Of a DNA stretch of 64,000 bases, positions 11,304 to 64,000 are shown one piece after another. The position numbers and the translations under genes were made by a program. Below the pieces are notes generated by a model. It was given only the letters and a program-made list of their open reading frames with translations, had not been told where the DNA came from and ran no database searches. Position 1 is the stretch's first letter; every line of letters begins with the position of its first letter. The DNA comes from Sistotremastrum niveocremeum HHB9708 (taxonomy: Eukaryota > Basidiomycota > Agaricomycetes > Sistotremastrales > Sistotremastraceae), in assembly GCA_001630475.1 (NCBI GenBank), contig KV419409.1, forward strand, positions 531,624 to 595,623. Direction: 5' to 3'.

Positions 11304-12030
11304 CTAATATTGGATAACATGCAGCCCCTTCGGATGACATGCGTATAATCTTCCTGTCTGCACTTTAAACAGCGAAGGCGAAGGATCGTCCTGATAGAGG
11401 GTGTTGCTTTCTCGCTCTGACTGATTTGTCGGAGACTCCGGTAAATCTAGGTAGTTTGAGACAGCGAGTTGGATCCAACACGAACCGTACCCGTGTCCAT
11501 CTTCAAATTTGGGCACCATTGCGGCATCAGAGCCCAAGCCCGCAACAGTAAAGTATACTCCAGGAGCGATTAGGTGAGTTCCATACACCACCGCGCCGTT
11601 GGGTGTAGTATCGCTTGGGTAGGGAAGATATTCGAACTTTGACAAGTCGTAGAGTATATGGCTTCGCGCTTTGAGGGGAATGCCACAGCTGAGCCGCCTA
11701 GATAGAGCCACCGAGCTGGCAGCAATCGCATAGAGCGCGTCAGCGGATGTTTCGGCAGGCGTGCATCCAAAAGGCAGTGAGTCGAAGAGGGTGAAAGCAT
11801 TGTGAGTCTGCATGAGACACGGTTTATTGGAGCAAACAATAGCTCGAAGTGAAGTGGACGTCTAAATAACACAAATATCAGTGTTAAAGCGGTACTCTAT
11901 CGACGTCCGGACGCGTGTCTTGAGGACGAAAGAGGAAGCTACAGTTACTTACCTGTGCCACATTCACAACATCTTGAACGCTAAGTCCTTCGAGAGACTT
12001 GAGGACGAGTTCTGGAGGTAGTGAAAGCAT
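11304..12030 (-). CDS. F-box protein copy 1, miniature form lacking the central region
   Basis: First exon (12030 to about 11949) encodes MLSLPPELVLKSLEGLSVQD..VNVAQ, a typical F-box-like helix pair. After one intron the second exon follows the family consensus (MQTHNAF..DSLPFGCTPAETSADALYA..SRRLS) up to ILYDLSKF. It then jumps, in frame, to the C-terminal part (THLIAPGVYFTV.., PKFEDGHGYGSCW, KGLHVIQY stop). About 300 residues present in copies 2-5 are missing, together with the second intron. The frame stays open, so a protein of about 200 residues with F-box and tail but almost no body could be made. SCF adaptor binding through the F-box is the family role; a truncated receptor might act as a competitor. 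Alternatively it is a decaying copy. Confidence 0.8.
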
Positions 12031-12356
12031 AGGCTACGTGCTGTTCTCGAGAAACAGGATAGCTGACACGCATTGACAGCAAGCTGATGCGCGGAGACAC
12101 GACGTCAAGGTCGACGCCAACCGGCGACTGTCGAAATTAATTTTCTTCGGGGCAATGGCTGCGGCCACCTCACTCATAATTTATATGTTGTACGAGCGCG
12201 AAGAAGCGGTCAATTTTGAGATCATGGTTGTATAAGAGTAAAACCTGAGTCTGGACTACAGACCCAAGAGAAGCAATGCCTTTCAAACTAAGCGCAGAGC
12301 CAAGGGCTCCCAGATGATAAAAGCGTAGCATGCATTTGGCATTTGAGAAAAGAATT

Positions 12357-14071
12357 TTAATACTGGATAACATGCAAGCCGTCGGGACGGCACACATATA
12401 ATTTTCCTGTCAATACGTTGAAAATCGACGGCGAGAAATCACCTCGGTATAGGGCACTTCTATCCCGCGGTAGGTGAGCGCCCGGGAGCCATGGTAGATC
12501 TAAAAATTGCGGAATATTGAGTCGAGTCCATGTTGAACCGAACCCATTCCCATCCTCAAACTTGGGGACCCTCACAACCTGCTCAGAATGAAGGTACCTC
12601 TCGGTGAAGTAAATGCCAGGAGCGATCATCTGCATTCCGAAAAGCTCTGATGCGTTGTTTTCGGGCGAACGAAATGAGATGGGAAGACCTTCCACGTCCG
12701 GCTGCCTCGTCTCCTGATGTAGATGAAAAGAGGCAAACACGATGGCGGCGTCGGATTCGGACATTCGAGCTCGTTGGTCGCCTTCAGGTTGCCTTTGACT
12801 AAGTAACGACAGTAGTGACGTGGGAGCATAGTGACTAAAAGCGAGTGTATCGAGCGTATAGGAAGAGGGTGATGTCTTGCGAAAAACCCAGACCAATGGC
12901 AAGGGATAAGCCTCAGACGGTAATATAAATGACGTGTCCCGAGGGAGGATCTCGCGCGATGTCCAGGATTCATGACTTGGCGACAGCGCATGTGTGAGCT
13001 CTGGCATGTCGTCCGGAATGTCAAACAGGATAACTTTAGTCGGATGATCGTGATTGAAGGCAAAAATGGCAGGTTCGAATGGATGAACGATGAACTGATT
13101 TATTGCCTATTAAGATTCAGTCACCTATCTTATGAAACAGGGAAATGGATGACCATTGTTTTGTGCCCGCTGCCACCAAGTTCTGGAAGAGACGCTCGGT
13201 CGAGCAGACTGACCGTTAATCCTTTCTTGTGTCGAAGATCGATGATAGCGAGACCTTCATGGTTGTTGGAGACAACAACGTATGGGTCATGGAGTGCTAT
13301 CGACATAGATCCCTCCACGAAAGGGACGCCGACGGACAGGAGGAGGGTGTTTGAGCCGAAGCCACAAGTCTCTACAGAGACCTCGAATACCTGAAGTGAT
13401 CTGCTGGAGACAGTACGATTTTGAATAAGCACTGCAACCAACAAGGCTCGTCCATCATCGGAGAGCTGGTAATCTACCGAGTACCAATAAGCATTGCCCG
13501 ACGTCAAATCCAAGCTGACTGATTCGTCTATGGCGCCCGAAAGGCCTAGTTTCATGATGAAGAGGACTGATGAAGAACGGAAGGCCAGCAGATCATTCGC
13601 GAGGAAAAAGTGTGCGGGATGACCGTGAGACGGGCTCGTCCTATTCCAGGTCAAGTCGAAAAGCGATAGATCGTATGACACGTGGTTTCGAGGTTTCAGA
13701 GGCATATTAGAGCTGAGGCGCTTTGAGATAGCGAGCGAGGCAACAGCTGTCGCGTAAAGCAGATCGGCGGATATTGTGGCAGGCGTAGATCCATGAGGCA
13801 AAGACTGCCAAATTGCGAACGCGTTACGAGTCTGCATGATGCTTTGCTTGTTTGAGAGGATGATGGCTCTGAGAGAAGTGCATGTCTAGATATGAAAAAA
13901 ACGTTAGCAACAGACATATAACTTGTTGATAGCAGTTGGATGTCGGGGGATTGGATCATTGAGAGGTGCAACTACCTGAGCGACATTGACCACGTCTTGG
14001 ATGCTCAGTCCTTCGAGGGATTTAATGACGATCTCAGGTGGAAACGAGAGGATAGACAATGCAGCATTCAT
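12357..14071 (-). CDS. F-box protein copy 2
   Basis: Start at 14071 (MNAALSILSFPPEIVIKSLE..), F-box exon ending VNVAQ, then an intron of about 90 bases. The second exon starts with the cysteine-bearing continuation and MQTRNAFAIWQSLPHGS and runs through PLKPRNHVSYDLS and a strand-rich body (LSDDGRALLVAVLI, LQVFEVSVET, VVVSNNHEGLAIIDL). A short second intron near 13090-13130 leads to FDIPDDMPELTH and the tail PKFEDGNGFGSTW...GKLYVCRPDGLHVIQY. No disruption seen. F-box proteins bind Skp1 and present substrates to the cullin-RING ligase; the repeated strand pattern in the body suggests a beta-propeller-like recognition part, which is inference. Confidence 0.88.
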
Positions 14072-14675: not shown

Positions 14676-17417
14676 TCACATCGTATGACCGTTCATCCCG
14701 TTCATCCCATTCGAATAATCCCCGTTGATATTCCCATAGAACGAACTCGACTCCATCCCAAGCTGCGCAGGATCAACGCTCATCTCCTGACTGAAACCAG
14801 GCCACTACAACACTATCAGTAAAACGGAAGTATATGAGGGGGAAGAGAACGTACGAAAATGTTGTTATCCCAGAATCGATCACCCAGGTTCGTCATACCC
14901 GCCAAAAGATCCTTCTCATCCGCAGGAACATATCCCTGCACAGGATCATGAACCGGTAATCCATCGTCGAACCCGTTCATCGCGAAGCCACCCGCTGCAA
15001 TCTCCTGCTGCATCTGCGTATGAGGATCCAAATGTGCGGATCCAGTGTTGACGGTAGCATATGAACCCATGTTAGGATGCCCAGTCATTGAATTCGATGT
15101 ACCGCTCATATCGAACAACTGATCGGCATTCCCATTATTCGTGAGTTCGCCGAATAGAGCGGCACTCTGCATATTCGGGCTCACTGAAGGATCCTTAGAT
15201 GAACCAGACAGCGTCGCCGAAGGACTCGAAGCTGACGCTGACGATCCCCTCGTCGATTTCTTCGCCTTAGCAAGGAGACCATCGAGGAAACGAGCGTATA
15301 GACGAGGAACGTGTCGTTCGTCGATAGCGATAGTATTGAGCGCTTCGATAAGCTTGCCGACGAGTTCGAGGATCTCCTCTTTTCGTTGAGCTTGTAGCCA
15401 ATTCGAGAATTTCGGTCGGAGGAGTTTGAGGAGGAATGCGGAGGCGAAGGTGGCGAAGATGGAATATGATTCGGGGCCGTAGCGGAGGTATCGTTTGGGA
15501 GCGAGGTCGTTGATGATGATGTTGAGCGTTTCGGTGGCTGCTCTGTAGCACTGTGTTATGAGGTAAGTGAATTAGTCAGACCACAGTTTGGATTTATTGG
15601 ACTTACGCGATCGAGGAACGCACTCTCCCTCCCAGGCACGATCTTATGGAACGCATGCTGGAATCCGAACGAAAGCGCCACCAGTCGGTTATAAGAGTAC
15701 TCCAATCGGAGGAGATCAAGCCGGAAGACGAGTTGCGTATCTATACACCCGTCAGTTTCTCATAACTAAGTCACCGGGAGGTGTATACCTTCAGGAGGCG
15801 TCAATCGGCCGATATGATTGAACCACTTCTGGCCCAATTTCTCGATCTCATCTTCGAACCCCTGCGTGACCTCCTCGAGCGGAAGAGTCTTATTAACACC
15901 TCCACTAATATCCGAAAAGATCGTCTCTGCACGCTCATCAGCCTCCTGCGCTCATCGAAGAAGAAAAAAGAATGAACATACGATGGAATCTCGCAATAAC
16001 ACGCAACAGCGCATTATAAGCACAAATATGCAAATCAAACTTGAACCCAAACGGCGTCCCACACCACCAATCATCTCCAAGCGCCTCAATATTCTTCTCC
16101 AAAAGCGGTGCAACCCAATCATCCCTAATAGTCAACGGTTTCCCAAGCTGCATCCCCGCACTCTTATCAAGATTATAACAAGTCAACCAAGCTCTCGTCC
16201 GGTTAAGAACTTCACGCGCATGTGCCTCTTGTTGCGTATGATCGATCGAAGCGTGCGTCGTAGCTGTTTCACCCGTCGCACTCATCGATGGAGGATGATG
16301 AAGATTGAGATCTGTAGCCATGCGGATCGCACAGCCGAGGTACATCCAACTTCGATCTTGGGACCATCGACGAGCGGGGATGGGGTAGAGGGCCATGAGG
16401 ATGTATGCTTGGACGGATTCGACGCATTTTTTTCCGGAGATGAGGGCGCCGCCTGCGCAGAGTTGGGCGTGGGACATGAGGGTTCGATAGAGGTCGTGGC
16501 GGTTTGGCATGAACCGGGATGCGGTGGCACAGATGACTGTGAAGAGGAAAGGGGAGCGGGAGAATGTCTTTTCGGGAGTGTAGACAGCGGGATCGAGCAA
16601 TGAGACGGACAACTGGGAGATCGTTAGTCTGGGATGAGTGAAAGAAGGAGGAGGGGTTTACATTCATATCTTGGAAGTAGGTATCGAACAACTCTTTGAC
16701 TTCCTTGACGCTGACCAGACCTCTCGTCATGATCTCCGGAGGGTTCTGCGTCTCCGAATCAAAGTGCAACGAAGGGTTCGCAGTGGGACCTGCAGGCTCA
16801 TCAGGTTCGCACTCCCTAAAGAACAGAGAAGACATACGGAAGAAAGATTCATTAGCCAAACCAACTTCATCCGCCTCCTGAACACCAACACTACTCCCCC
16901 TCCTCGTCCTCTTCTTCTTAATACTCTCTGCCGCAATAAACCCAAGCGGTGCCGCACTAGGAATAACATGCGCTTTCTCCTGTCTCTTACTCTCTTCATC
17001 TCCACTATCCTCATCACCCTTCCCATTCAACAAATCCTCATCCTCCTCAATACCATTGGCGCCGTTCGCATTAGCAGCTTGATATCCACCCTCCGTCTGA
17101 TCATCATCTTCTCCATCATCACTCGCATCCTCAACAACAGCATTAAAGTCCCCACCCAACAATCCCGAACTCGAATTAAGCGTCGCACGCGCTTTATCGA
17201 TCCATTCCTGAATCTCCTTCTCGCGCTGTTCTTCATCCGGACTCTTCACAGCCGAAGCAGCTGGAGAAGGTGCGCCTGGACCAGGGGATGATGCAGATGC
17301 TGCGTAAGGATTGGGAAGGGATAGGACGGCGGATGAACGGGATTCGAATTGGTTGAGGAGTTGTTGGATGAGGGCGTCTTTGTCGCGGATGAGTTGATCG
17401 CGTTGGTGGATTTGATC
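14676..17417 (-). pseudogene. Zn2Cys6 transcription factor, downstream part cut off by a transposon
   Basis: This is the C-terminal four-fifths of a fungal Zn2Cys6 regulator whose DNA-binding half lies at 20936-22912. It begins inside an exon at DQIHQRDQLIRDKDALIQQL (a short coiled-coil linker), continues through an acidic, disordered segment, then the fungal transcription factor domain: TRGLVSVKEVKELFDTYF, YTPEKTFSRSPFLFTVICA, RRWSQDRSWMYLGCAIRMAT, ARAWLTCYNLDKSAGMQLGK, and a C-terminal activation-like tail ending NGMNGHTM at 14676. The paralogue at 47442 has every block in the same order. The exon is interrupted 19 bases after its 5' end by the 3.5-kb element. Oddly, an ATG inside the element (17489) reads in frame into this part, so a headless protein could still be translated. 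Splice sites in the remainder look normal. Confidence 0.88.
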
Positions 17418-17621
17418 CATTAGATGGGGACCGGCAAGCCCTATAACGATTTTGTGACGCTTACATAATACTTTCACTGGTCGCGTCATGGCAAGTCTGC
17501 ACAGTTACCGTTCTCCCTCTCTTTCCTCGCTATATCGCCATTATAAAATCAAGTAAATATTATACGACTTTTCTATGATACTATAAATGCTATATATATA
17601 TAAATCAGAAGCCCTCCTCTG

Positions 17622-20511
17622 TCAACAGTCATCCATTTCGTCTTCATCTTCGAGGCCCTCACCAGATACATTCTCCTGCTCAATTGGACTCTCTATGCCT
17701 GCCGACGAGCTTGACTGCTGTCTCAAGACCTCAGCTTCATACCTCTTCACAGCTTCCAAAACAGCTTTGAGTCTTTCCGCCCTCCTCGGCATGTCTTTAG
17801 CACGCGGAATCTTGGGATCTGTGAGCCTAAGTCGTTTGATTTGTGTATCAAGCTCTGCTCGCGTCATCTTGTTGATACGAACACGGTCTGTGATAACCTC
17901 CATCAGCATAATCGCCTCCTTGGCTTGGCGCTTCTGGGTGTCTTTGTCTCGTTTCTTCTGTACTTCAACCCGGTCATGCTCGATGCCCTCTTTCTTCCGG
18001 GCTGCCTCCAATCCACTTTGATCTTGTTGCCGGGCTGTCTGGCGAACATGTTTATCAAGATCCGCATTGCCTACCTGCTTAATATAGAGGCCGGTTTTAT
18101 TTTTCTTGTACTTGGCCTTGGCATTGTGCATTGACAATGTTCCGTTCGGAGAGGCACGCATGTCGACGCGCAAGGTTCCTAAAGCTCCCTCGTTCCGGTC
18201 GTTGGTCGGATGCATCCACGAGAGTTTTCTCTGTGACGCCGTGAGTGAGGCAATCTTGCCTCCTACAGCATATTCAGCTGAAAACCGACGCCACGTTTGC
18301 AGAGCCCCCTGAAAGAAGGCAACGAGCAATGGCTTCAGGTGAGGAAGCTCTGCACTCATTAGTTGAATTTTATAAACAACTTCGGGTCGTTCCCATGGCT
18401 GTCCGTCCATTGCTCCAGTCTCGTGAGAAACGGTCTCGGAGACGAGAAGGTACGGGTTCTCTATGATAGCCTCGCAATGTGTGATAACTTGGTGATGCAG
18501 CAGACCGAGATGCAAAGCATTCATGTCTTTGACATTGGGGCTTCGGATTCTTCGCAGATATGGATGACTGATCGACTGAGAATAGAGAGCGAGAACGGAT
18601 AGTTCCTGTAGTGTGGGGGCATCATGTAAGGCATCCCAGAGATTTTGTTCCATATGATTTAATGCACGAGAGTCCTTTTTGTCTTTGACAAGTGCTAATA
18701 ACTCCTTGTACAATGGCAGATGCACGAGTAATTCTGAGGCAGCCTCACAATGTGACTGATATCGAGTGTTACTCGTATCTGGGAAGTCCACAGCATAGCC
18801 AAGCATCGCAACAAAGAACCAACGAAAAGTGTCCTGTTGACCTTTCTTGTCATCTTTGTGATTAAACACAGCACCGGCAAGACTGGTTGCTTTAATTGCA
18901 CCACCAATCGAGGTTTCGATTGCACGCAACTTGGCAGCAGAAGGACCTGGTTCGGCAGCGGCGGCAGCGTTGTCTCGATTCATCAGTTTGCGTGGTCCTG
19001 GAATGCCTGAGATTACCCAATAGCCAACCATAGCAGTGTTACCGCCTTTGACTGCATTAAGCTCTTTGTGCATGGAACATCCGACCCAAACAAATTGGGT
19101 CTCCTTTTGTTGGTCCTCTGAGCTCAGGAGTGCAAATCCTCGATCTCCAAGTTCTCGATGAAGGGATTTGAGCATCTCCTTGTGATGCCTCTCGCGCTCT
19201 TCGTCAGATAGGAGCTGCCAGTTTTCATGTCCGCCAAGGGCCGTGATGGTTTCATGGGTTTTGGTCCATAAGAGAGCTAAGACCTCGTCTGATGGCATCT
19301 CCAGGATCATATTTTTGCCTCTGATCTCGCGAGCACATGCAGTCTTATATTCTTCAACAAGACGGCAGAGCTTTTTCTGATCCTCGGCGTGATCCGTATG
19401 CATGCCAGTGAATTTCGCAGCAAACGTTCGAGGATCGATCGGATTTCGCCGGCCAGCGGGAGTGGCGTTCCATGCATTCGCTATGGCCTCCAGGCGAAGC
19501 ATCCAGCCACGGAGCTGCTCATCGCTTGTATGGCTGGGCGCGGAATCTATGCCCAGAAAGAGATCCTCATGCTCGCCATTGGCTGCTATGGCGGTGATAT
19601 TCTTTGACTCGTAATTACGGTGCCGGTGTGTCGTTCCGTCCCCGCTGATCGTAATCCCTGTGTAGTTCAGTGAATGACAGATATTTGGTAAAAAATTCGA
19701 CTCATTGCTAAAGTACCAACCTGCGGCTTGATTCATAGCATCTGCAATCTGGATGTCGGCATATATCCCCCCTTCTCGATCACACCGGCGAACTGTGCGA
19801 GCATCGAGCTTCCCAACAATTTCTTTTCCTAGAGCTTCACCCACTACATGCACTACAGCACCGACTGACCCAGCAGGTACACCTAACGAGGACAACTCTC
19901 GGGTCATCGACCGGATAGCTGGAGGGTATACTCCGTTCTCTTTCAGGCAAAATGTTCGACTCTCGTCAGTATGTTTCTGCACAGCCTGAGTGACTGCTCT
20001 CTCAATCTGTTGCGGGTGTCTTGTAATCCGGGCTTTCTGAGCTCGACACCGTTTCCGATAGAAAGCAATCTCCTTCTCGAGTGTTTCTATTCTGCCGCGC
20101 ATCTAGATATATCTGAATAATTATGCTTCGAGCCAATCATTAAAAATCGATCACCTGATTTGTCTCCGACGAAGTGCCATGAAATTTTGCTAATTCTCTT
20201 TCCATCTCTGCCTTTAATGATTTCAGGCTTGCCGACTTCTCGTCGAGATCATGTTTCAGCTGTTTCAGCTTGGCTTTGGTCCGGCTGACTATCTTTCTTT
20301 CATTCCGGAATTTCTTCTGATAATCAAGAATGTTAAGGTGTCGTTTAGAGGGTTGGTGAGACGGCGGTGATATATTCTCTTTGTCATTCTCCCAAGACTC
20401 AGGACCCGAGGACTCTCCCGTTTTGTTCTCAGCCGCTAGGACTAGTGCCGCATGACTTTGTTCACGTTGTGCAGGGCTTCGACGCTTCTTAGCACCTAAA
20501 CGGGAGCCCAT
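17622..20511 (-). CDS. Putative transposase of the 3.5-kb element
   Basis: Two exons: 20511 to about 20160 (MGSRLGAKKRRSPAQREQ.., basic then coiled coil) and about 20108 to 17622 (826 codons), joined over a GTGATC...CTAG intron of about 50 bases that reads Gln-Met-Arg-Gly-Arg. Landmarks: basic coiled coil at the start, ISGDGTTHRHRNYESKNI (candidate first Asp), LGIDSAPSHTSDEQLRGW, HTDHAEDQKKL, then VWVGCSMHKELNAVKGGN with a C-x2-H, a charged helical C-terminus and an acidic end (DEDEMDDC). The C-x2-H between catalytic acidic residues is a hallmark of several RNase-H-like transposases (hAT, MULE, KDZ, Kolobok groups). Proteins of this look are numerous in Agaricomycetes genomes. The frame is open throughout, so the element may be recent. 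Confidence 0.8.
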
Positions 20512-25345: not shown

Positions 25346-27030
25346 ATGAGACGCTATACTTCTATTCTATCACTGCCGTCTGAACTCATCATCAACTTCC
25401 TGGAAGGCCTGTCAATCCAAGATGTAGTCAATGTCGCTCAGGTAATAATCGCGCCCACCAATCCACATCATATTAACGCGGTCGATATTTAGACATGTTC
25501 GTCCTTTCGAACGATCATTCGCTCTAATAAACAGAGTATCATGCAGACGCGTAATTCATTTGCGATCCTGGACTCCTTGCCCCTCGGGTTTACGCCTGCT
25601 CAAATATCCTCCGAAGTACTCTACGCAACAGCCGCGGGGTCACTCGCCATCTCAAAACGGCTGAGCTCTGGAAACAAGCTGACACCCCGAAGCCACATAT
25701 TATACGATCTATCAAAGCTCGATATAATGTGGGATCGCCAGAATAACATCTATCCTTCCGATTTCTTCCTCGCGGACCATGTTCATCTATTAGCTTTCCG
25801 ATCATCCTCGACTCTCTTCGTCGTAAAACTAGGCCAGTCTGATCTCATGGACGAATCCGCCAGGATAGACTTAATTCCTGATCGGATTTACCGGATCGAC
25901 TATCAAGTCTCCGATGATGGGAAATGTCTCTTCATCGCGATCGTTTTGAGAGATGAAATCACATGGAGTGGACTTCTTCAAGTATACGAAATTCCTATTC
26001 TACCCCGTGGGTTTGGTCAAGAAGTCCTCCATCTTTCCATTGGCGTTCCGTACCTAATCAGGCACCCGGCTGCAGAAATGCAGCGCCCGACTGTCACAAT
26101 CCGGCACCCATACGTCGTGGTAACCGTCAATCATGAAGGTCTCATTGTCATTAATTTGAGCGAGAAGAGTGGATTGAACATTGATGTCCTCGATCAATCG
26201 TTTATTCCGGACGAAGATGAAGAGGCATGTGAACTGGTGAATTTTCTGCCTCTTTTGAAAATTTATTGTGAGACAGACCATGTCAAAGGCCGTTCTCGAC
26301 TTTCGAATTCATCCACAGGAGCCTGCCGTTTTCATATTCGACGAATTTTGGAGATGCAAAATTTTCGTATTCGATATCCCGAACGACATGCCGCCGCTTA
26401 CGCATTCGCTCTCTTCTGCAATTGACGCCTGGCCATTACGCAAAGTTGGGCATCAAGAAAGTCCCTTCGAGTTCCCATTCTCGAGCGCCACCTGGACGAA
26501 CCCAGCTGGGTTTCGAAAACTGTCTACCTCTTCCTTGATTTTTGACATAATCGTGATCAACCCTTCTGAGACATATGATGAATTGGCACTTGTTGATCAT
26601 TTTATTTATCATAGTGCTGCGAGTTTTACCACGCGCTTATATCAAATTTCATTCCAGGAATTTCCATCTGCCTGACGGGACGAGAGAGGTGGAGTCTCTT
26701 CGCTCCCTGCAGGAGGGTTGGAAAGCTCACGTCAGCAGCGTGGTGTTTGGGAGACATGTACTTGCTCCGAACATCTATATCACAGTCGACGACCTAAACT
26801 CTGCCCGCGCGGCGCTTGTTCCCAAATTTGAGGACGGGCATGGGCATGGTTCGTGCTGGGTTCAACTCACGATACCAGAATGCCTGGATTCACCAGCACT
26901 GCCGGCGGATCTCTCAAAACGAGATAACAAGATCGTCTACCGGGGAGATCCTTATCCTTCGCTGTTTGACGTTCGGAGTGGAAAATTATATGTATGTCGG
27001 CCTGAGGGGTTGCATGTTCTCCAATATTAG
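25346..27030 (+). pseudogene. F-box protein copy 3, apparently frameshifted
   Basis: F-box exon from 25346 (MRRYTSILSLPSELIINFLE.. ending VNVAQ), intron to about 25494, then a long exon (MQTRNSFAILDSLPLGFTPA.., ILYDLSKLDIMWDRQ, YQVSDDGKCLFIAIVL, VTIRHPYVVVTVNHEGLIVI). The second intron is about 26239-26287 and the next exon opens with AVLDFRIHPQEPAVFIFDEF and FDIPNDMPPLTH. The frame that carries this exon meets a stop at 26673, while the family C-terminus (PKFEDGHGHGSCW.., GLHVLQY stop at 27030) continues in another frame. The shift lies between about 26640 and 26675, where 13 bases (TCATTCCAGGAAT) look like a partial duplication. No intron fits there. Either the copy is broken near its last third or it makes a shortened protein. 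Confidence 0.8.
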
Positions 27031-38470: not shown

Positions 38471-38621
38471 GCTTTGACACTCGTACCGTATACGATTTGT
38501 CCAAATTCCACATAACATGGGATCGCCAGAACTCTCTCCGGCCCTCCGACTTCTTCCTCGTGGCCAATTTATTGGTTTTCCGGTCTTCTTCGAATCTCTT
38601 CTTCCTGAAGCTTGGCCCGTC

Positions 38622-47441: not shown

Positions 47442-50400
47442 ATGGATGTCGTCAAGTACGACGAGCAACCGAACGGCATACCCAGTGCAGAGCGGATCAT
47501 GGAGGATAAAATTTCGAGAAGGCAGAATACTCAGGTACACGTCGCGTTATCTATATTCGCACGTCAATAATGACGCTGTAAACCAGTGCCCGACGCCCCA
47601 GAGTCATGGTAGTGAGTCAATCATTCTTCTAGTTTGGTCTTGCTTCGAGCCCGCTGCTTGTGCGATCTGTGAAATCGTGCCACAGTTAATCCGAGAGACT
47701 TCACCTTTCATTCTCACCTTCTTTCTTCATTCCCCCTCTCTTGGCTCAAATTCTGTTCGAGCTCCTGTCTGATTCTCTGTATAGAGACTTCGCAAGGAAG
47801 CTTCAACTGGACACCTGCGTTTCAAGAACTTCTTCGGGCTTCTCAGGGGCGAAGCCTTGGGAGTTTGTCCAGCAGAGTCAATAGACTCCATTCGACTGTG
47901 TTGAATCTATCGAAACAGACACTCCGCGTCTCTCATTCTGTCAATGACGAAAATACGGAGGTATTTGGCCGTCACGGGGGCAGAACTGCAAACACGGACA
48001 AACACAGTTTTGATAATGAACTGTCGTTGGCCAGGCCTCGTAGACGGTACGTGGACTCTGCTTATCAATTCCAACTCGCTAATCCTGATCATTTGTAGTA
48101 CCAAGACATTGCCTGCATGTGAGAGGTGTAGAGACCTGAAGGTCAAATGCGTTAAATCAGGGCCAGATGCCAATGCTACATGTTCAAGATGTACAGAAAG
48201 CGGACAGGAGTGTAAACTTCGTGAAAGATCAGCTAGGAAAGCGCCTGAGTACGTACCCCTCCCTCATTTCATGCATTGTATTGAAGTCTCATAATCTTGT
48301 AGCCATTTGATCATGTCGCATAAGGTTCATCAACGCGACCAGCTCATCCGCGAGCAGGACGCATTGATTCAACAGCTACTATACCGATTAGAATCTGGTT
48401 ATTCGACAGATTCGTCCCTTCCTAGCCTAATCTCCGCCTCCTCCGCTTCTTCTTCGACTGCTCGAGATAGCCTCCCAACAAGCCAAGGGCTCTCTGCTGA
48501 CACCTTACAACCTGCAATGAGTGATACGTCGACTCAGGAATGGATTATTCGGGCACGTGAGACACTGCAAGCTAGTTGGGAACTGATTTGGGGCGGGTCC
48601 AGAGAGTCGTCGGATGACCTGAGCAAGAGCAACGAAGATGGCAGACAGACAGACGACGACGACGACGGCAGCAATGAAGGCAGGGACTTCTTGAGTCTCA
48701 TGCGTAATATCACTCTTCCCGCCTCGGTTACTGCAGGGAGACGTGGGACAGAGGCAAACCCTCAGAAACATGCCACCATTCGATCCGCCGATGAGATTGG
48801 ATCGGCTCATAATGCCTCCCGTGAGTAGGATCCTTCTCAGTTGTTGCTATATTATAGTGACGATCAGGATAGATCTGATCATGAATCCGTCATCTCAGGC
48901 TCTTCCAGCGATTGACCTTTCCCCCGAGACCTTGACCAGAGGCCTGGTCACCGAAAGCGAAGTCAAAGAGTTGTTCGACATCTATTTCAACGATATGAAC
49001 GTGCGTGTAGCTTAGTCCTTTGCTGGCTTATACCTATTGACAGTTATGCTAGCCTTCTATATCGCTGTTGGATCCATTGCTATACACACCGGAGAAGACA
49101 TTCGACCGCTCCCCCTTCCTCTTCACCGTCATTTGTGCAATTACCTCCCGGTTCACGCCCAATCGTTACGATCTCTATCGGAAGCTCTCGTCTCGCGCGC
49201 AGCAATGTGCCAGCGCCGATCTCATTTCCGGCAGGAAATGTGTCGAGTCCATCCAAGCCTACATCCTCATGGCTCTGTACCCCACCCCTGCCCGTCGATG
49301 GTCGCAAGATCGAAGCTGGATGTACCTAGGCTGTGCAATACGCCTGGCTTCAGAGATAAATCTACATGACCTTCCCTCGACGATCGTCATTCGCGAGACA
49401 ACCACGCCGCACATGTCGACCGATCGTACGCAACAAGAAGCGCATACGCGCGAACTCCTGAATCGGACGAGGACCTGTTTGATATGTTATAATCTTGATC
49501 AAAGCTTTGGGATGCAGCTTTGCAGACCGTTGTCTGTTCGGGATGACTGGGTGGGGCCGCTTTTGGAGAAGTATATTGAGGCGTTGGGAGATGGATGGTG
49601 GTGTGAAACCCCGTTTGGGCTCAAGTATGATATGCATATTTGTGCTTATAATGCGCTGTTGCGCGTTATTGTGAGATTCCATCGTACGTGTTGCTTATCG
49701 TCTGATCAGCGCAAGAGACTGACGGTGATGCAGAGACGATCTTTTCGGACATCGAGGGAGGTATGAATACGAATCTTCCGCTTGAGACGTTAGCGCAAGG
49801 CTTTGAAGATGAGATTGAGGAGTTGGGTCAGAAGTGGTTCGATCGTATCGGCCGATTGACGCCTGCAGAAGGTGTGCTCCAAACTAATAGTGAATCTGAA
49901 CTGAGCTGACGCGTATCTAGATACGCAGCTGGTGTTTTGTCTCGATCTTCTCCGATTGGAGTATTCGTATAATCGTCTCGTGGCCCTTGCGTTCGCATTC
50001 CAGCTTGGGCTCCGCGAGGCCGTCATGACACCAGAGACAGTATGGTTGGATCGCGTACGTTCTTTTGAGCTATACATCAAAGACAAGTAGATAAAGTACT
50101 TCCTGCTACAGTGCTACAGGGCAGCAATCGAGACACTCAATATCATCATCGACCTTGCACCCACCCAGTACCTCCGCTTCGTTCCTGCATCTATCTCCAT
50201 CTCGGCCACCTTCGCCTCCGCATTCCTCCTCAAACTCCTTCGACCTCGATTCTCGAATTGGCTCAAAGCGCAACAATTTCCCGAGATCCTTGAAGTCGTT
50301 GCTCGGGTCATCGATACGCTTGGCACCAACGCAGTCGATCAGCATCACACTCCTCGGCGCTGTGCCATATTCATCGGCACCCTCTTTGCACAAGCCGAGA

Positions 50401-50745
50401 AGTCGACGCGTGGATCATCGACATCTGCATCAACGTCCTCCGAGCCATCTTCGCCTCAAACCGAGGATGTCGACCATTCGCAACAATCCGATCACAACGC
50501 CGAGCCGGAATACTCAGATACGGACGAGAATGATACGCTTCCGGAAGTGTTTTCCGATGATCATCGGTTCTGGGATACTGATATCCTCGTACGTCTTTCC
50601 CTTCTGATCCTCGATCCGAAACTCATCTGTAGTGCAGTGGCCAGGGTTCAGTCCTGAGATGAACGCTAGTCTTGGGCAGCTCGACGCCGAGCCTGTGGGT
50701 ATCTATGAAGACATATGGGAGCGCCCGACTGACAACGTAATATAA
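47442..50745 (+). CDS. Zn2Cys6 fungal transcription factor, intact paralogue of 14676-22912
   Basis: Start at 47442 (MDVVKYDEQPNGIPSAERIM); two introns lead in frame to CPTPQSHETSQG.. and the exon ending SLARPRR. The zinc cluster is CERCRDLKVKC...CSRCTESGQEC (C-x2-C-x6-C-x10-C-x2-C-x6-C, about 48113-48220), followed by RSARKAP and the coiled-coil linker VHQRDQLIREQDALIQQLL. An acidic disordered part, then the fungal transcription factor domain: TRGLVTESEVKELFDIYF, YTPEKTFDRSPFLFTVICA, RRWSQDRSWMYLGCAIRLAS, LICYNLDQSFGMQL. It ends after WPGFSPEM.. with NVI at 50745. About 10 introns. The family activates or represses target promoters through CGG-type sites. It lacks the long glutamine-rich N-terminus of its paralogue. 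Its targets are unknown; the neighbouring gene cluster is a natural candidate. Confidence 0.87.
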
Positions 50746-50780: not shown

Positions 50781-52353
50781 TTAGTATTCATATATGTGCA
50801 ATTCATTGTTCATGAATGCACAGAGCCTGCTACGTAAGAAGTCGAAAGCGTATGCCACTTTGTAATTCCCTCCTCGAGGACGAAAATCAGGACCCAAAAG
50901 TGGAACCCATCCAACTGCACCAAACTCGTCTAATTTATTCGGCGCGTTGAGGACACAGATGGGCCTTTGACCGGGAAGCTGACGCGGCATGAGGGCATAG
51001 CTTATACCTCCGCTCATCTTCTGGATAGGATGCTGGATCTCCAGATCAGGTACCTGGTCTTTTGGTAGAGCGATATCGCGAACTACAGTCTTTGAGTCCA
51101 AGGATAGAGTCATGCAGTATGATTCAAGATCTCGACTGGTGACGGCCTCCAGGACCCAACCGTATGCGGGTAAATATCCAATACCAGAGAGCGTCATCAT
51201 TGTCTGCGTACCACGAGGACGAGGAAGCCGGAAGACCTCGCACACAGTGACTGGTTCACGTTTAATGGGTAAGATGAAGGTCGAGTCTTCGGATGAGGAG
51301 GCTTGAAGAGGGGATAGATGCGAGATATCGAGGGAGAAGATTGCAGGAACTTGGGTCACGAAGCCTTGGATGAAGAGTGTAGGCTCTTCTGCATGAAATG
51401 CGGCCTCCTAGAAGGGTGTGAGTGACGGATATCGTTTTTGAAGCCATGAAACACCATTCACCAGCAACGGGGTCACAGACAAATAGATGAAGTCAGACTC
51501 CATCATTCTGATCCCAATGAGATATCCCGCCTTGACTCTCCAATTCACAATTATCACTTCAATCGGCCCGATAATGGCGACAAATGGGTCTCGAATGATG
51601 ACTGAATTCTGGATCTGGACACCCAGAGCCTGAGGTAATTTGACAATAGCGTGGCTCTTAACATGAAGAAACCTTCCGCAGATTTGATCTTGCGCCAGGT
51701 CGAATTCCTCAATATACAGGTCGTACGAAGTTGCACCGTCGTCGCGAATCAGAGTAGCCATGATAAGAGTGACGTTATTCTCGAGGAGTTGACACGCTGC
51801 CCCTTCAACGTGGCCAGGAAATTCAAATTCAAAGCCCCGAGAAGGAGCTGCAATGTGGATGAACAGCATGAAGTGCGGGCGATGGTTGCAGATTATCACT
51901 TCATCGTGACTCCATAGATAATTGCTTTGGAAGACGCGTCGATCATATCGACGATCATCGCCTTCTCTCACTAAATCATTGAGTGGTATGATGCGGGTAT
52001 CTCGCGGTTGGAGAGGTAATCGTGATCTGGATAGTCTTCGGAAAGAAGCCATAGTAGCGATGGCGAGAGCATAAAGATATTCTGGTGACATGTCCTCCAG
52101 TGTCATTCCGATGGGCAAGAAAGATAGTTCTGAGCTGGACTCGGCGGCGATGAGAATGAAATTCGCTTGGACAATGGTCAATAATGTGCGGCAGCTCTGG
52201 TGATGAATACAATATAATCACTGATGAGACTACAACGGAGCATCGCATAAGGGAATGACGACGGACTTGGGCTAACGAGAGAATGTCCGGTATGCTCAAA
52301 ATTCGCAATAATTGAAAAAGGAGCTCGAGAGGTAGAGTACTGAGGGCAGACAT
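50781..52353 (-). CDS. F-box protein copy 8 (subfamily III)
   Basis: Start at 52353 (MSALSTLPLELLFQLLRILS..), F-box exon ending LSLAQ, intron to about 52195, then exon SCRTLLTIVQANFILIAAES and on, with SRRLSR-type block FRRLSRSRLPLQPRDTRI, SNYLWSHDEVIICNHRPHFM and VIIVNWRVKAGYLIGI. Second intron about 51411-51464, then EPTLFIQGFVTQVPAIFSLD, a Pro-rich strand region and the end RLCAFMNNELHIYEY at 50781. Same architecture and intron positions as copies 2-7, but a different subfamily with a HIYEY end. Intact. It converges on the transcription factor, whose stop is only 35 bases away. Confidence 0.87.
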
Positions 52354-52593: not shown

Positions 52594-54197
52594 TCAGTAT
52601 TCATAGATATGTAAATGGTTTCCGAACAATGTGCAAAGCCTCCCATGAGCAAGATCAAAAGCGTAGGACGTCGTATGACTGAATGTGATTGCCAGACGAA
52701 TCCAACCAAAGCGCCCCATTTCGTCTGGGCCCGCAGGAGGAATCAAAATTCGCAATTCCGGCCAACGCGCTTCGCCTGTTCTGCGCTCGGTGTAAGCATA
52801 CTGTTGTGCTCCGTTCATTCTCTGGAAGACGTGTCCAGACGAGTGGTCTTCTTCAGCAAAGAACTCGTTTTCGAAATCCGAGAATGGATTTCGAAGCACG
52901 ACTTGGCGGTCATCTAAAGAAAGGGAGACATATGAACAAGTGGGCGGCTTTGCTCTGACACGTTGAGTGATAGCGTCCATTGTCCACCCCATTGAAGAAC
53001 CGGTTGCGGAGAGCAGAGTGATGGACCGCTCTTCATATGCGCATTCAAAGATCACCGCCAGCTCCATCGACAGTGATTGGTGTTTGTATCCCGAAGGAAA
53101 AGAGTAGGTCCCGGGATTCTCTTCGCTCGCTTGGAGATCTGGCAAATCTGACATTTCCAGAGATAAGACTTGTGGATTGTTCAGCCCGTATAGTGGGTAG
53201 GTATTGATGATATAGAGGATAGGGAGCCGGGGATGCAATGTAGCCCACTGGAGGAAGCTTGATCAAGCCACTTTGACTACACTGAAGGCACAAAATGACG
53301 TACGTGAAGCTCTGCACCACCTGCACCTTCAGATTGGGTAGTGACGAACCCTTTCTTCGTCTTCCATTCGACAACAAGAACCTCAGTTTTGATAAGAATA
53401 ACCTTAGTCAAAATGAGCGCAACAACATAAGCATCCCGGAGAGAGATGAAGCTTTTGACAGCCACCCCCCGGGGCAGCTGAAGGCTAAGATGTGTCTGAA
53501 TGTGCTCGAATATCCCGCACACTCCATCTTGTGCCAAAGAAAACTCCTCGATACGCAGGCTGTCCGATACTGAGCCTCTGAGAGCGACAGCCACGATGAC
53601 GGTAGAGTTGTCTTCTTGAAGATGACACTTCATAGTGATCACATGGCTCGGAAAGTTGAACTCGTAGTATCGCTCCGGGGCTGCCAAATCAATGAACAGG
53701 ATCCCTTCCTTGTAGTGGTTGCATATCACCACTCTGTCGTGCATCCAGATATATCCACGCTCGTTGACGCGAGCTCCTAGTCCTCCTCGCAAAGGCTTCA
53801 AGGGAATGAAAAGGTTATTTCGTTGTTTGAGGGCTGCATGTGGCCTGAGTAATCTTCGTGAAGATGCAGCAGCCCGCGAAGCTAATGCGTAAAGGTGGTC
53901 GGGTGATATGCCTTTCCAGGTGAGGCCAATCGGTATCGTAATGCAATGGGCATCGCAGGCTGAAGAGAATAAAGACGCAGTGCTCCGAACGACTGCCAGA
54001 GAGCGCTTTGACGTCTAAGCACCCAAAGAGAGCAAATGATTCAGAAAATACAAGATGAAGCGCGATGGCGATTAAATACTTACATGCGCAAATGAGAGAA
54101 CATCATGGATGCTTAATCCCGTTATAATTTCCAATATGAGTTCCAACGGTAGGGCAGGCAGCGCTGGCGTACCAGCGACCTGAAACAGAGTATTCAT
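52594..54197 (-). CDS. F-box protein copy 9 (subfamily III)
   Basis: Start at 54197 (MNTLFQVAGTPALPALPLEL), F-box exon ending LSFAH, intron to about 54015, then TSKRSLAVVRSTASLFSSAC, ISPDHLYALASRAAASSRRL, YIWMHDRVVICNHYKEGILF, LVVEWKTKKGFVTT. Second intron (GTACGTCATT..CCTCCAG, about 53248-53304) joins to WATLHPRLPILYIINTYPLY; the tail is SYAFDLAHGRLCTLFGNHLH then IYEY at 52594. Intact, about 490 residues. Closest to copy 8, in tandem with it on the minus strand. Confidence 0.86.
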
Positions 54198-55652: not shown

Positions 55653-55723
55653 GCTTAAGTGGTTTAGTGGTAAAATCGCTGCTTGCCATGCAGTGGCCCC
55701 GTGTTCGATTCACGGCTTAAGCA
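55653..55723 (+). tRNA. tRNA-Gly (anticodon GCC)
   Basis: A 71-base cloverleaf without intron. Acceptor stem GCTTAAG (55653-55659) pairs with CTTAAGC (55716-55722), discriminator A at 55723. D-arm region TGGTTTAGTGG with the box A sequence, anticodon stem GCTGC/GCAGT around loop TTGCCAT (anticodon GCC), T-arm CCGTG TTCGATT CACGG with box B. An A+T-rich acceptor stem is slightly unusual for Gly. A T-run follows at 55735. Confidence 0.95.
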
Positions 55724-55734: not shown

Positions 55735-55741
55735 TTTTTTT
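55735..55741 (+). terminator. RNA polymerase III terminator of tRNA-Gly
   Basis: Seven consecutive T on the plus strand, 11 bases after the tRNA end. Confidence 0.85.
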
Positions 55742-55846: not shown

Positions 55847-57422
55847 TTAATATTCGAGTACCTCAAGACGTTGATCTACAAAAAGTACCAGGCGTCCTTG
55901 GAGAGTATCATACCCCGCAATACAATTATGCAATGCTTTGCCGTCCAAAGGGTCATCTCCCTCCTTGTACAAATTAGATGATCTCGTGCTCAGTCGAACC
56001 CACCTCGTCTCTCGGTGATAATCATCCGCGAGCCTTAAAGTATATACACACTTCTCGTTCTGGTCGATAAACAGGAAGGGAGCGCCGTTAGGAGCTATGC
56101 GCTCTTCATCGGTGCCGTGACATGCGATAGGAGGTTGAACGACGCTGGAGATAGGAATTTTAAACCCCTGCCATGTCTGCGTGGAATAGCGAAGATGTTC
56201 AGCGGATATATATTCGGCTTCTGGCTGCTTTGGAGGGAATATCACGGCGTCGTACGTGTCACAACCTCCGATTTGACGAAAGATAGTTGAGGGAAGTCGA
56301 GCATCTTTTCCCCACGATTGTCTCTCTCGGAAGAGATCTAGATCTTGCAGCTCGAGAACGCCATGGTTGAGCTCCGTGTTGACCCAGATTTTATTTTCTT
56401 CGGCCAACGGGGGAAGTTCCGGAAGCCCAATGCTAGCCGTCTCGTAGAGGTCACCACATCGATACACCGCAATGACAGAATTGTGGGACGGATGGAAGCA
56501 TGCATGTACGATGACCTGAAAATGATGAGGTCGTTAATTATCAGTGCTGCACTCCAGAGAGAATTAATTGGATGAGACTGACGGTATAGTCTGTATACTG
56601 TGCGAACTCGAGCTCCAGTTCCAGTGCACGCTTCTCTTTCCAATCGACCACCAAGATACCACCAAACCATATGAAAGCAACACGATCCCCTTTCACTTCA
56701 AGACTGACACTGGGTATTTCCTCCATGCCCTCGCATCTCATCACAAAATGAGTTTTACAATAGCCAAGTCTCCCGGTGTCGAGGGTGAATTCGTCCACTA
56801 CCAGTGAATGTCCGGTCATTTCGGAGTTTTCGGAGTAGATGGCCAGGAAAACGAGGACCGAGTTCGACTGGGCTACAGCCTGATAGTCTAACCCGCTGAT
56901 GCTGTCGTAATCTCGGGAGCGCATCAATCCACTTGATAAGTCCAGAATCCATAGAGTGTCGTTGTGTAGATTAGAAAGTACAAAGAATATGAAGTTGTCG
57001 AGAAGGAGCATCCGATTCCAGAAATGATCGGGAGAGCCTTTGATGTCGAAGGTAAGTCTTCTCCTTGGCATGAGTATGTGATCTGCAGTATCTGGAGTCA
57101 TGCGAGCTGAAAGTGCGGTTGCTTTTGCGGCAGCATCGTACAACTCCATTGGAGTCATCATGTCGATCGTTTTGAGATGGACGGAAATGATCTGCGATGT
57201 GTTGATAGCGTGAGCCAGTGGATATTTTGAGCCTCTTATGCTAGCACGTATTCGCGAGCAAGTCTGAGAGGATGAATACGGTCGCGGTTAGTAGCCTGGA
57301 CTAGTAGTATCAGATAGATGCAAGAGACGACGCACCTGTGCAAGATGGATGATATCTTGCACGCATAAGCGTTGCATAACAAGATCCAAAATTTCAGGGG
57401 GCATATGTTGAAATACTGCCAT
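55847..57422 (-). CDS. F-box protein copy 10 (subfamily IV)
   Basis: Start at 57422 (MAVFQHMPPEILDLVMQRLC..), F-box exon ending IHLAQ, intron of about 75 bases, then TCSRIRASIRGSKYPLAHAI, PMELYDAAAKATALSARMTP, a strand-rich body (FIFFVLSNLHNDTLWILDLS, VVDWKEKRALELELEFAQYT). Second intron near 56515-56580, then the exon with YRCGDLYETASIG and the end LVLFVDQRLEVLEY at 55847. It is the most diverged of the complete copies but keeps both intron positions and the aromatic last residue. It shares a divergent promoter of 217 bases with the Nup96 gene. Confidence 0.83.
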
Positions 57423-57639: not shown

Positions 57640-60600
57640 ATGACCAAATTTCGAGCAGACTGGGACAGCGACACCGAGCTGGATGTCGGTCTTGAAGAGA
57701 CATTGCCTCCATCTTCTCCACCTCGAAACGACAGCAGACGGGCAACTGTCGAAGATTACAGTTCAGGTAGCGATGAGGATGAGCTGCAGGAGGAGGAGGA
57801 GGAGTTAATGCAGACTTCACCTTCGAGAGGGCCAGTGGCAGCCCAGGCTCTCGTGCAGGACGATGATGGCGAGTACGTTCATGCTCACGAAGCCGGGATA
57901 CACGAGCCATCACCCGAGTCTTGGGACTCCGAGCGCGACTTCGACGCGAACAAGGAGAACGAACGGCGCGTCACAACTGAGCCTATACCATGGGCTGCCA
58001 CCGTTGGTGTGGAACCGCATCGTCTCCATGTAATGCAACAGTCTTTCTTTCATACTCAACCCCAACCACCAACCACTCAACCACCTTCACGATATCCGAT
58101 ATCCATCTCAAAAGGTCGAACACCAACTCCTCAGAATGCCACTCCTTCAGCCACACAAACGAACGGAAAACGTACCATCCGACCCTCTGATTTCAATTCT
58201 ACCGTGGAGAATGGAGAGGTTTGTCTCAAACTTACCATTGTTATCGCCACCATTGAAGAAATTTGTTCAGCGTTCTTCTTTCGGTAACAACCTCCTCAAT
58301 CCTCCAACACGACCGGCTCGCAAGTACGCTAAAGTGACTCCGCAAGTCTCATTGACTGCGGGTCACGAAGGCTCTCTTGTCGATCTGGGTCTCTCGATGA
58401 GTCGATCATTCCGGGTCAGCTGGGGCCCAGGCGGGACTTTGGCCCACTTCGGGACGATTTGCGGCCCCAAAGATACTTCGTACGCGTCTTATTCAATTCG
58501 TTATGCTCTAGCTCCTCAATTTGACTGCTAGGAATTATGCATCGAGTTCTGTGATTACTGTTGAAAAATTGAAGATTTCTCCAGTCGACGATGTGAGTTA
58601 TCAACAATCTGTTCAACCCCTCCCTCTCTGAAACCTCAAAAGGATGACGAACGAGATCGCTCCTCAGACTTACTGTCGCTGCTATCGCGGCAGACCGAAG
58701 TCAGTATCGATCAAGGCATACCAAGTGCCAGTGCCTTGCAGTCACTGCGTTTCAATGACTTCGCTTCAATCTTTCCCACGTCCGATACATCGCCAGAAGC
58801 CAACCTATGGCGTCTTGGAGTAGCTCTTTTTGATGAGCTAGACCTGCTTGATCCCAACGTCTCGGTCCAAGTCTTCCAACGAATCTACCAAATTCGCCGG
58901 AAGGACGCTGTCAGCCAATGGCTCGAAGGGGCTTGTAGAAGTGCCGTTGATTCCGACTTCGGGTCCTTACGTGGAAGCGGGAACGTTGCGAAGCAGATCC
59001 TCACTCTCCTGACAGGGAACCAGGTCGAGCGAGCTGTTGAGCTCGCCGTTGACGGCAAATTCGTCCAATTATCAACTTTATTATCGCAATCTGGCGATGC
59101 AACTTTCAGAGATTCGCTGAGAGATCAGATCACTATTTGGCGAGAACAGAGGGTTAACACTCATATATCACCGGAGGTGCTTATGCTATACGAACTTTTG
59201 GCCGGGATGACCATCGCAGAAGGCGCTCGAGGGCCGTTAGACTGGAAGCGGGCGTTCGGGCTCAGACTGTGGTTTGGAGACACGCTTGATGTGGATGCAG
59301 GGTTGGTGGATGTGGTAGAAGAGTATGAGAGGTTAGCGGAGAACTCATCGTGTCCATCACCAACGCCTTGGTATATCGAATCTCCCCCGTCCTCGCCACT
59401 CGCACGTACTCTTCGACGGCCGTCTTCCACTATCTCAGTGCTTGATGCCCAGTTTCTAATGATCAAACTCTTCACCGATCCTTCACTCTCCTTCGACGAA
59501 CTGTTGTCCCCCCTCCCTTACTCCCCTTCCCCATTGGACACTCGCCTCCCATTCTTCATGTACATCCTCCTCTCAGGCATTCTTCCCGACCGCGACATTT
59601 CAGATCGACAGACATCCAGTGCGGGGCCGGTCAGAGGATCGAGCATGATTGCGGGACAGGTCATCGAGGGATACGCCACCATGCTTGAGAACGTAGACTC
59701 CATCAAAGAGGCTGCTTTTGTTCTTATGTTCCTGGAATCAGGTGCAGGGTAAGCTCAGCTTCCTTCCACGGTTGCCCGTAACTCAATCTTGCTCTACAGG
59801 CGAAAGAAAAGCATCGTTGAACTTCTCTCACGAAACGCTCACTTGATAGATGAAGAGCTCGAAGAGGCGCTGCTCGTCCTCCAAATACCCATTCAGTGGA
59901 TCAACGAAGCAAAGGTGCATCATCTCCGGTTCCTCCCATCTTCGTTGTCGGACTTATCGGCTTTATACAATAGGCTACGTATCATCTCTATCAGGGAGAG
60001 ATTTATGAAGGTTATGAAGCCGCACTGAAAGGAGGGCTCCAGAATCTCGCCCACGATCTTGCTGTACAGAGATTAGCGCCTGAAGTCGTGATGAGAGATG
60101 ACATGCGACTGCTTCGACATCTATTTGCCCGATTCATCCCGAAGCTAGTCAATGGTTGGTCGACACGAGGAAAAGTGAGTCATCCTTGACCTCTCTATTC
60201 ATCTAGTGATACTCCTGCTGACGCGTCTCCAATGTAGTTGTACCTCGACTACGCGACGCTCATGATCGCGCTGGATCAACAGGCCGAAGCAACACGTGCA
60301 GCAGAGCCTGAGGCCGTTCCAGATGCTGTCGAAGCGGCGGAATTATCTCGTCTCGCTCTCGAGCTCCCAAAGCTGATCCCAAATCTCCCAGACGTGGGAG
60401 GCCGAAATCCTGCCCTTCTGCATCGGGCTGCCGTGCAGCGAATGTCGAATGAGCTGGCAAAACGAGAAGCAGGGCTGAAGAAGCTCGGTCTCGTAAGTCC
60501 TTTCCTCTCCACTGCTCGCGTAGGTTCATCTTGAACTGATGAACCATACACAGGATAATATTACCCTTGGGAAGGGAGCAGTCTTGTTGTTGGATAATGA

Positions 60601-62595: not shown

Positions 62596-62700
62596 GTCTG
62601 GACTGTGTAATCAAGTGGACAGTCGCAGATTACCGACCAAGGACCATGCCTGAGTCACGGATAGTAATTGATACATGAGTGTTAATGGCTTCGAACTCCA

Positions 62701-64000
62701 TCAAAAATACACAATCTTGAGAGAATTTGTATACTGCATTATCAACCTGCCCCCGATAAGATCGAAACAAGCCATGCCATCGATGAGCGCTGGAGGCGAT
62801 GTTGCTATGTTCAACCAGCATGTCTCGGCATGATAATCATCCCCGAAACGTAAGACACGATAGCTGTATTTGTCAGCGGTCACGATTTGACTCCCGAAGG
62901 ACGAAACAGGGAGTTTTCGGCGGATCCGCGACTCCCAGCGGGGAAGAGTGGGGGCGCCGCGGACAGGAATGGAGGATCGTTCCCAATCATCAAGAGAAAG
63001 CGTCCAGTGATTTATTTTGACCAGGGGCCGAGAAAACGGCTCTTCCGTGACGTCCAAGACATAGCCTCCCTTCATCAAGCGAAGCTGACATGTAGTTTCT
63101 GCACCGGGCCACCGGGAGAACCCCTCCCGTGGGTAACGAAGCACAGGTAGTCCTTCGTTCAAGTCAGAGCTCTCTGTGCCGTCGTCAAGAGCTTCCAGTG
63201 TGGCGATATTGTCAATAGTTATTCGATCGGCTTCCTGAGCCATGGGTGGCATGGTGGACGGCAAATCTAGAGTCAGCCAGTGGGGGTCGCGGCTACCATC
63301 TCGGCACTCGATGATCAAGACTGGCTTCGTCGGGTGAAATTGAAGGTAAGTCACGAGGTACTAGAAGATATTTAGCAACCGATTCACCAGGAACGAGAAG
63401 CAACCACATACGCTGTCATCGAGACCAATCGGGAAACGTGCGGCGGTGTTCGCCTTCCAATCGCATAGTATGATGTAGTGATCAAGTGCAAGGACAACGA
63501 GATTCTCCTGAATCCCTACTCTTTTTACGCTCGAATTATCGTCGATATTGGATTCAAGTTCGAAAAGGAGTTCAAACTGAGAAGTGATGGAGCCAAAGTC
63601 ATCTTCGCCGAGTGAATATTCATTGACGTAAAGGTCTATCGTCTTGTCGGCACTCTTTTCAACCATCGCAACGCATACGCTGCGAGAACCCTGGGGAACA
63701 TGATAAGCCATGTCTATGACTTTCGGGTGTTCGTCGTCTGTTTCGACGAGATCGTTCAAGAAATCGACCAAGTAGACAGTGCGAGTCGGATAGTCGTAGA
63801 AGATGATATAATGGTCCACTACAAACTGATATAGCATCCAGATGGGAGGCCTCACTCGTCCGGTATCTTCTCGCACCTCGACGACGTGGGAATCTTTGAA
63901 CCATATCATCGAGTCAGAATCACTGGGATTGAGGAGTCTTCGTGACAACGATGAAGCCCGTGCCGCCCGATCGAACAAGGTCTCGAGATCCACGGAGTTC
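62701..64000 (-). CDS. F-box-family protein copy 11, 5' end outside the window (subfamily IV)
   Basis: The visible part starts in the long second exon: MDLETLFDRAARASSLSRRL at 63993 matches the PMELYDAAAKATALSARM block of copy 10, followed by VVDHYIIFYDYPTRTVYLVD and ILCDWKANTAARFPI. Second intron near 63363-63420, then YLQFHPTKPVLIIECRDGSR, a strand-rich part and the end GRLIMQYTNSLKIVYF at 62701. The F-box exon would lie just past 64000. The C-terminal aromatic residue and the intron position support membership in the family. It converges on ERG6 with 105 bases between the stops. Confidence 0.78.

Follow-up and report, generated by a model that had tools for sequence, protein, structure and literature searches.

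The window analyzed here is a 64,000-base stretch of the Sistotremastrum niveocremeum HHB9708 genome, in which we observed 11 F-box loci that fall into four subfamilies and share a single three-exon design. The whole family numbers about fifty related genes and remnants of genes, and the window holds only a portion of it. We consider it probable that these genes encode substrate receptors of the SCF (Skp1–cullin–F-box) ubiquitin ligase with an FBXW-like build, multiplied by local duplication and diverging on the presumed substrate face of a predicted beta-propeller. Since the divergence is focused on this face, the copies most likely differ in the proteins that they present for ubiquitination.

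Extent and gene design of the F-box family

The window corresponds to bases 531624–595623 of contig C16 (717,637 bases) in a genome of 34.7 Mb and 111 contigs. All-against-all BLASTP of its reading frames showed F-box genes repeated from position 11304 to the window end (E 2.8e-102 for the best pair of F-box exons), as the first-pass annotation had described; the array is, however, not confined to the window. When the retrieved DNA of the genome was searched with an exon-2 profile, at least 49 loci were found (E<0.01; the split copy c5/c6 counted once, fragments included), and 26 of these lie on contig C16 at ~465–697 kb, i.e. over ~230 kb. The remaining 23 are distributed over nine contigs (six each on C24 and C19, three on C12, two each on C26 and C50, and one each on C10, C37, C18 and C41). 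Beyond the 49 there are three more matches (C41:113.7 kb, C48:214.7 kb and C16:664.8 kb) as well as weaker ones. The 49 loci comprise 30 complete uninterrupted models (29 automatic ones plus c12), three broken window loci and 16 others. With regard to a subtelomeric position of the clusters, a search that skips simple repeats returned no telomere repeats.

For the window, gene models were built by picking splice sites on the basis of GT-AG borders, branch point and reading frame. Eight of the 11 loci (c2, c4 and c7–c12) are uninterrupted, with three exons and 478–525 residues each, and three are broken, by an internal deletion (c1), a frameshift (c3) or mobile elements (c5/c6). All 11 loci have a short exon 1 with [VTLF]A[QH] at its end, and intron 1 follows directly in phase 0, so that the constant place of this intron was correctly recognized in the first-pass annotation. 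In the automatic models, intron 1 is in phase 0 in 29/29 and intron 2 in 28/29 cases, an agreement that is not fully independent because the model builder favoured sites near the profile ends. The segment D-[IV]-P-x-D-M-P was found after intron 2 in the closer copies, as had been stated (c2, c3, c4, c6, c7 and c8); it is absent from c9–c12, and that part of the gene is deleted from c1. Exon 3 (~210–250 residues) encodes the latter half of the body and not the separate short terminal domain previously proposed. For c2 and c4 the automatic models place intron 2 differently from the curated ones, and the curated models were used in the later analyses.

The F-box was identified by Pfam family PF00646, which matched all seven spliced window proteins at E<=1 (best 9.9e-6; c2 with 23.1 bits against a cut-off of 20.5) and scored above the cut-off in all three further spliced proteins, c12 included. 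In c2 the match covers residues 7–44 and the junction of exons 1 and 2 lies after residue 32; the F-box thus spans intron 1. The earlier placement of the F-box in a tiny first exon ending near VAQ therefore holds for the exon and its end, but not for the domain, which runs on into exon 2. The genome gave one SKP1-domain match.

A tree of the 30 intact proteins, in which 9 of the 27 inner branches were left open, fits the four subfamilies when taken together with BLASTP. One subfamily contains c2 and c4, and BLASTP assigned c1, c3 and c5/c6 to it; c7 paired with c8 (94/89) and c9 with c10 (100/100), and c11 and c12 grouped with a gene of contig C50 (98/92; flagged for long branches). The placement of c11, c12 and some others is unsure owing to such branches. 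The genes from C19 (six), C24 (four) and C26 (two) form one clade per contig, at 97/93 or better, and those of C16 occur in several groups. These contig-specific clades indicate that many copies were made by local duplication.

Several members have introns that are multiples of three in length and free of stops. One whole gene (L028:1589-3259, minus strand, on contig C12) and six exon 1–2 pairs are open when left unspliced.

Predicted fold of the body and divergence of the copies

By sequence, the F-box was the only Pfam family that matched more than one member. A weak Utp12 match was obtained with one member (E 0.072; seven full proteins searched against Pfam at E<=1), and no Pfam propeller model matched the body exons; WD40 models gave nothing at E<=0.1 in 56 body rows (27 exon-2, 28 exon-3 and one long) or at E<=1 in the seven full proteins. 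The PDB sequence search returned F-box regions only (FBXO31, Fbw7 and cyclin F) together with unrelated matches, all at E 0.018 or worse. We take the weak non-F-box matches to Pfam and PDB as chance. The profile search that the first-pass annotation had proposed for the body thus yielded no propeller family.

Structure prediction, proposed at the same time, gave moderate support for the beta-propeller that had been suggested. Two models were made with AlphaFold2 (AF2). Model 1 is the contig-C12 copy L028:1589-3259, folded from its unspliced frame because this is open across both introns, and it therefore contains the read-through introns. Its mean predicted local distance difference test score (pLDDT) was 69.4 and its predicted template modelling score (pTM) 0.68, and it consists of F-box and linker helices followed by 27 strands, most of them grouped by four. 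Foldseek returned 256 PDB matches at E<=1e-3, with the clathrin N-terminal domain ranked first and EED (many entries), WIPI4, Atg18, Nup159 and DDB1 among the best 50 of the 256; the best matches are, where recognized, what we take to be beta-propeller proteins. Model 2 covers exons 1–2 of c8, in which intron 1 can be read through in frame and both exons thereby form a single reading frame (42763-43614), read-through intron included. It reached a pLDDT of 73.3, mostly 85–97 in the strand region, and its top PDB match was 2ovq_B (Skp1–Fbw7–cyclin E degron; E 4.1e-6), with Fbw7 also at ranks 2 and 4. In both models the F-box part, of low pLDDT, is followed by a predicted propeller, and the body is probably a divergent, apparently seven-bladed beta-propeller.

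Site rates were calculated for the 30 intact proteins and mapped onto model 1. The mean rates were 0.42 for the F-box, 0.52 for the linker helix, 0.82 for the strands, 0.97 for the a-b/c-d loops and 1.43 for the b-c/d-a loops, so that the presumed substrate part (0.82–1.43) evolved faster than the F-box. Per site, the two loop classes differed 1.5-fold (106 b-c/d-a versus 82 a-b/c-d sites, p 9e-6 with sites taken as independent); per loop, the difference was twofold (means 1.41 for 12 b-c/d-a and 0.72 for 11 a-b/c-d loops, p 0.003). Blades 6–7 were grouped differently in the two comparisons. In the better predicted blades 1–3 the two sets were fully separated (6 versus 6 loops, p 0.002), and the difference was kept under permutation over loops (p 0.0003) and under length correction (t 3.4). 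Because the loops alternate between faces, we read it as an effect of the face, within the limits of the predicted model.

One b-c loop, that of blade 6 (L028:1589-3259, residues 486–496, family consensus PKFxDGxG, rate 0.51), is conserved although it belongs to the otherwise variable face; c9–c12 have different sequences at this place.

The ratio of nonsynonymous to synonymous rates (dN/dS, w) stayed below 1 whenever intact copies were compared over the whole gene, with values of 0.82 (C26) and 0.46–0.56 (C24) for young pairs. When three young pairs, two of which share a gene, were pooled by region, w was 0.37 for F-box plus linker, 0.42 for strands, 0.47 for the slow face and 0.87 for the fast face; a small unassigned rest gave 1.55. 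The fast-face values were nominally 1.06 for the youngest pair, 0.72 and 0.88 for the other two pooled pairs and nominally 1.18 for a fourth, overlapping pair. Counts of nonsynonymous and synonymous differences (Nd/Sd) for the fast face, as compared with strands plus the other face, gave an odds ratio of 1.95 (p 0.0008) with the three pairs and 2.05 (p 0.013) with the two independent pairs only. The fast-face dN/dS is thus elevated, which is not proof of positive selection.

Window loci, mobile elements and neighbouring genes

Features of the F-box cluster in the window (positions refer to the window).
Feature	Positions	Strand	Description
c1	11304-12033	-	F-box copy in which an in-frame internal deletion has fused exons 2 and 3
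c2	12357-14071	-	Uninterrupted; exons 14071-13976, 13885-13154, 13106-12357; 525 aa
c3	25346-27030	+	Exons 25346-25441, 25493-26236, 26277-; exon 3 frameshift near 26.6 kb (or base error)
c4	29508-31200	+	Uninterrupted; exons 29508-29603, 29675-30415, 30463-31200; 524 aa
c5+c6	31770-40339	+	One F-box copy; fragments 31770-32140, 38484-38621, 39162-40339; two mobile elements between
Helitron in c5/c6	32141-38483	+	6343 bases; Helitron_like_N and PIF1 reading frames
540-bp insert in c5/c6	38622-39161		8-bp target duplication GGCCCGTC; no gene found within
c7	40907-42529	+	Uninterrupted; exons 40907-41020, 41091-41798, 41846-42529; 501 aa
c8	42763-44398	+	Uninterrupted; exons 42763-42846, 42904-43614, 43676-44398; 505 aa
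c9	50781-52353	-	Uninterrupted; exons 52353-52267, 52196-51462, 51407-50781; 482 aa
c10	52594-54197	-	Uninterrupted; exons 54197-54084, 54014-53304, 53247-52594; 492 aa
c11	55847-57422	-	Uninterrupted; exons 57422-57336, 57263-56583, 56515-55847; 478 aa
c12	62701-64000	-	Uninterrupted (489 aa); window includes exon 3 and most of exon 2; exon 2 to ~64098

In c1, ~0.87 kb of coding sequence is missing internally; of the copies compared, the one at C16:513.6 kb is closest to c1, with DNA identities of 91, 86 and 73% over three pieces. Exon 1 of c12 lies beyond the window end. We rejected c5 and c6 as two separate copies, since joining the flanks at each of the two insertion sites restores an uninterrupted, family-like reading frame from the pieces 31770-32140 and 38484-40339; they are one gene.

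The larger insertion in this gene has an A^T target, a 5' TC and a perfect 7-base inverted repeat, ACGCGGCGGGCCGCGT, that ends 13 bases before the 3' end, features which we take to be those of a Helitron; the 3' end is CTCG instead of the textbook CTRR. One in-frame stop lies between its Rep (Helitron_like_N) frame and its PIF1 helicase frame. The smaller insertion has similar ends (TAGAGTT / TAGGGTT) and is presumably hAT-like. An inverted relative of the latter was observed inside the Helitron, within 33724-34240 (94–97% over three pieces), and a GC-rich tandem repeat (24/48 bp) at 38348-38443, just inside the Helitron 3' end.

The F-box cluster is not a pure tandem array, because a Nup96 gene (58565-59749, plus strand) and a tRNA-Gly gene (55653-55723, plus strand) are located inside it. 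Among the F-box copies there is also a duplicated transcription factor gene (14795-17504, minus, and 48295-50654, plus) with Fungal_trans domains at 15941-16657 (minus) and 49053-49763 (plus), 74% identical in the best piece. The members of a second duplicated gene pair (9195-10757, minus, and 45840-47355, plus; 61–69% identical over same-sense pieces) adjoin F-box copies at both places, and the pieces searched gave no Pfam or PDB match. An uninterrupted frame of 826 residues (17622-20102, minus), with no Pfam match and no significant PDB match, is possibly part of a mobile element. A short local duplication was found between c3 and c4 (27829-28373 and 28625-29070, plus; 46–78% protein identity over pieces).

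Comparison with known receptors and competing explanations

As receptors, the proteins would dock with their N-terminal F-box on Skp1 of the SCF ubiquitin ligase, and a helical linker would join the F-box to an apparently seven-bladed propeller, on the FBXW plan of Fbw7/Cdc4. The propeller would bind the substrate, and the receptors would thereby choose proteins for destruction. The genes would have spread through local duplication while copies continued to be lost (birth and death), with divergence greatest on the propeller face built from the b-c and d-a loops. The predicted order of F-box, helical linker and propeller is common to Fbw7/Cdc4 (PDB 2ovq), the top structural match of c8. In FBXW propellers the b-c/d-a face binds the degron, and the fast loops of the present family are of the same types as those lining this face in Fbw7, with the face assigned on general grounds. 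The family differs from FBXW proteins in having no WD40 or other Pfam propeller match, in comprising ~50 divergent loci in one genome, and in apparently having seven blades, whereas the Fbw7 propeller has eight.

Several observations weigh against the receptor interpretation or the fold on which it builds. The F-box parts of both models have a pLDDT of only ~36–59, and each contains a read-through intron. The superpositions are loose (TMq 0.32/0.34 and rmsd 11.7/17.8 for the best hits). The alignment of model 1 contained three extra rows in the first half and 28 in the second, the exon-2 rows being few because a joint alignment of exon-2 and exon-3 rows otherwise mixed the halves. The profiles of the two halves showed no mutual similarity (hhalign probability 0.2%), and blade count and loop faces were assigned from strand order, least surely in blades 6–7. 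As to the rates, b-c versus a-b loops alone did not differ significantly (p 0.13), blade 6 is reversed, with a slow b-c loop (0.51) and a fast a-b loop (1.56), and the pooled w of the variable face (0.87) is below 1.

Genomic drift with weak constraint on the variable face is a serious rival, and we regard it as possible, although less probable than the receptor interpretation. On this view, F-box/propeller receptors whose developmental or housekeeping substrates overlap would multiply and decay largely neutrally, and constraint would simply be weakest on the variable face, perhaps as a result of the opposite face packing on F-box and linker. The polarity between the faces is expected under both explanations and does not decide between them. 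Whole-gene w below 1 in intact copies and pooled w below 1 on the variable face speak for drift, as do the three broken loci of the 11, one bearing two insertions; neutral drift of F-box genes has been argued for plants (available part of PMC7829749). The 30 three-exon models without internal stops and the strong conservation of the F-box argue against it. Uniform decay of the copies is not the case, as 8/11 window loci are uninterrupted and whole-gene w is below 1.

An equally serious and comparably tentative alternative is that the genes form a developmental receptor set for protein turnover in fruiting bodies or particular tissues and not for the recognition of foreign or non-self proteins. 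Mushrooms possess many F-box genes under developmental regulation, with 210 genes in Flammulina filiformis, 80 of them developmentally expressed (PMC7567395), and Fomes fomentarius has contiguous, co-expressed F-box clusters (PMC11827164). The present family resembles these sets in its many genes and contiguous clusters; its body fold, three-exon design and face-specific divergence are not named in the accessible parts of either paper. Rapid turnover is, on general grounds, less typical of conserved developmental regulators. It is improbable that the proteins have left the SCF as Skp1-bound adaptors of other complexes or that the copies are mostly decaying: the F-box matches are modest (~23–30 bits where printed) and the predicted F-box parts of low confidence, but mean rates are lowest in the F-box columns among the regions compared, and eight window loci are uninterrupted.

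A more far-reaching version of the receptor interpretation, which we consider unlikely on present evidence, is that some 50 germ-line SCF receptors make up a fungal recognition system whose variable faces are tuned by selection to foreign or non-self proteins and mark these for destruction. Such a system would parallel a proposal made for the F-box families of nematodes, and candidate targets would be proteins of viruses, bacteria, transposons or incompatible partners. In the part of PMC8665587 available, the Caenorhabditis F-box expansions are likewise large and lineage-specific, with birth-and-death evolution, a constrained F-box and a substrate part that evolves faster; they are proposed to act against foreign proteins, and in C. 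elegans C-terminal windows with dN/dS >1.5 were reported in 73/95 pairs. The present fungal family differs in its body, a predicted propeller, and in that w>1 is not established. Of the diversifying recognition system postulated in the first-pass annotation, the pattern was thus recovered, in that one loop face is more variable, but positive selection was not (pooled w 0.87).

In mushrooms the F-box genes of a genome can number in the hundreds (210 in Flammulina filiformis; PMC7567395), and their purpose is mostly obscure. For mushrooms, the abundance of F-box genes, their expression at particular stages and their clustering are already on record, and we found no published account of the present F-box propeller family in the open-licence literature. 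The concentration of variation on one predicted binding face offers a testable link between this face and the choice of substrate. If the targets were foreign or non-self proteins, the family would represent a ubiquitin-based recognition repertoire in fungi.

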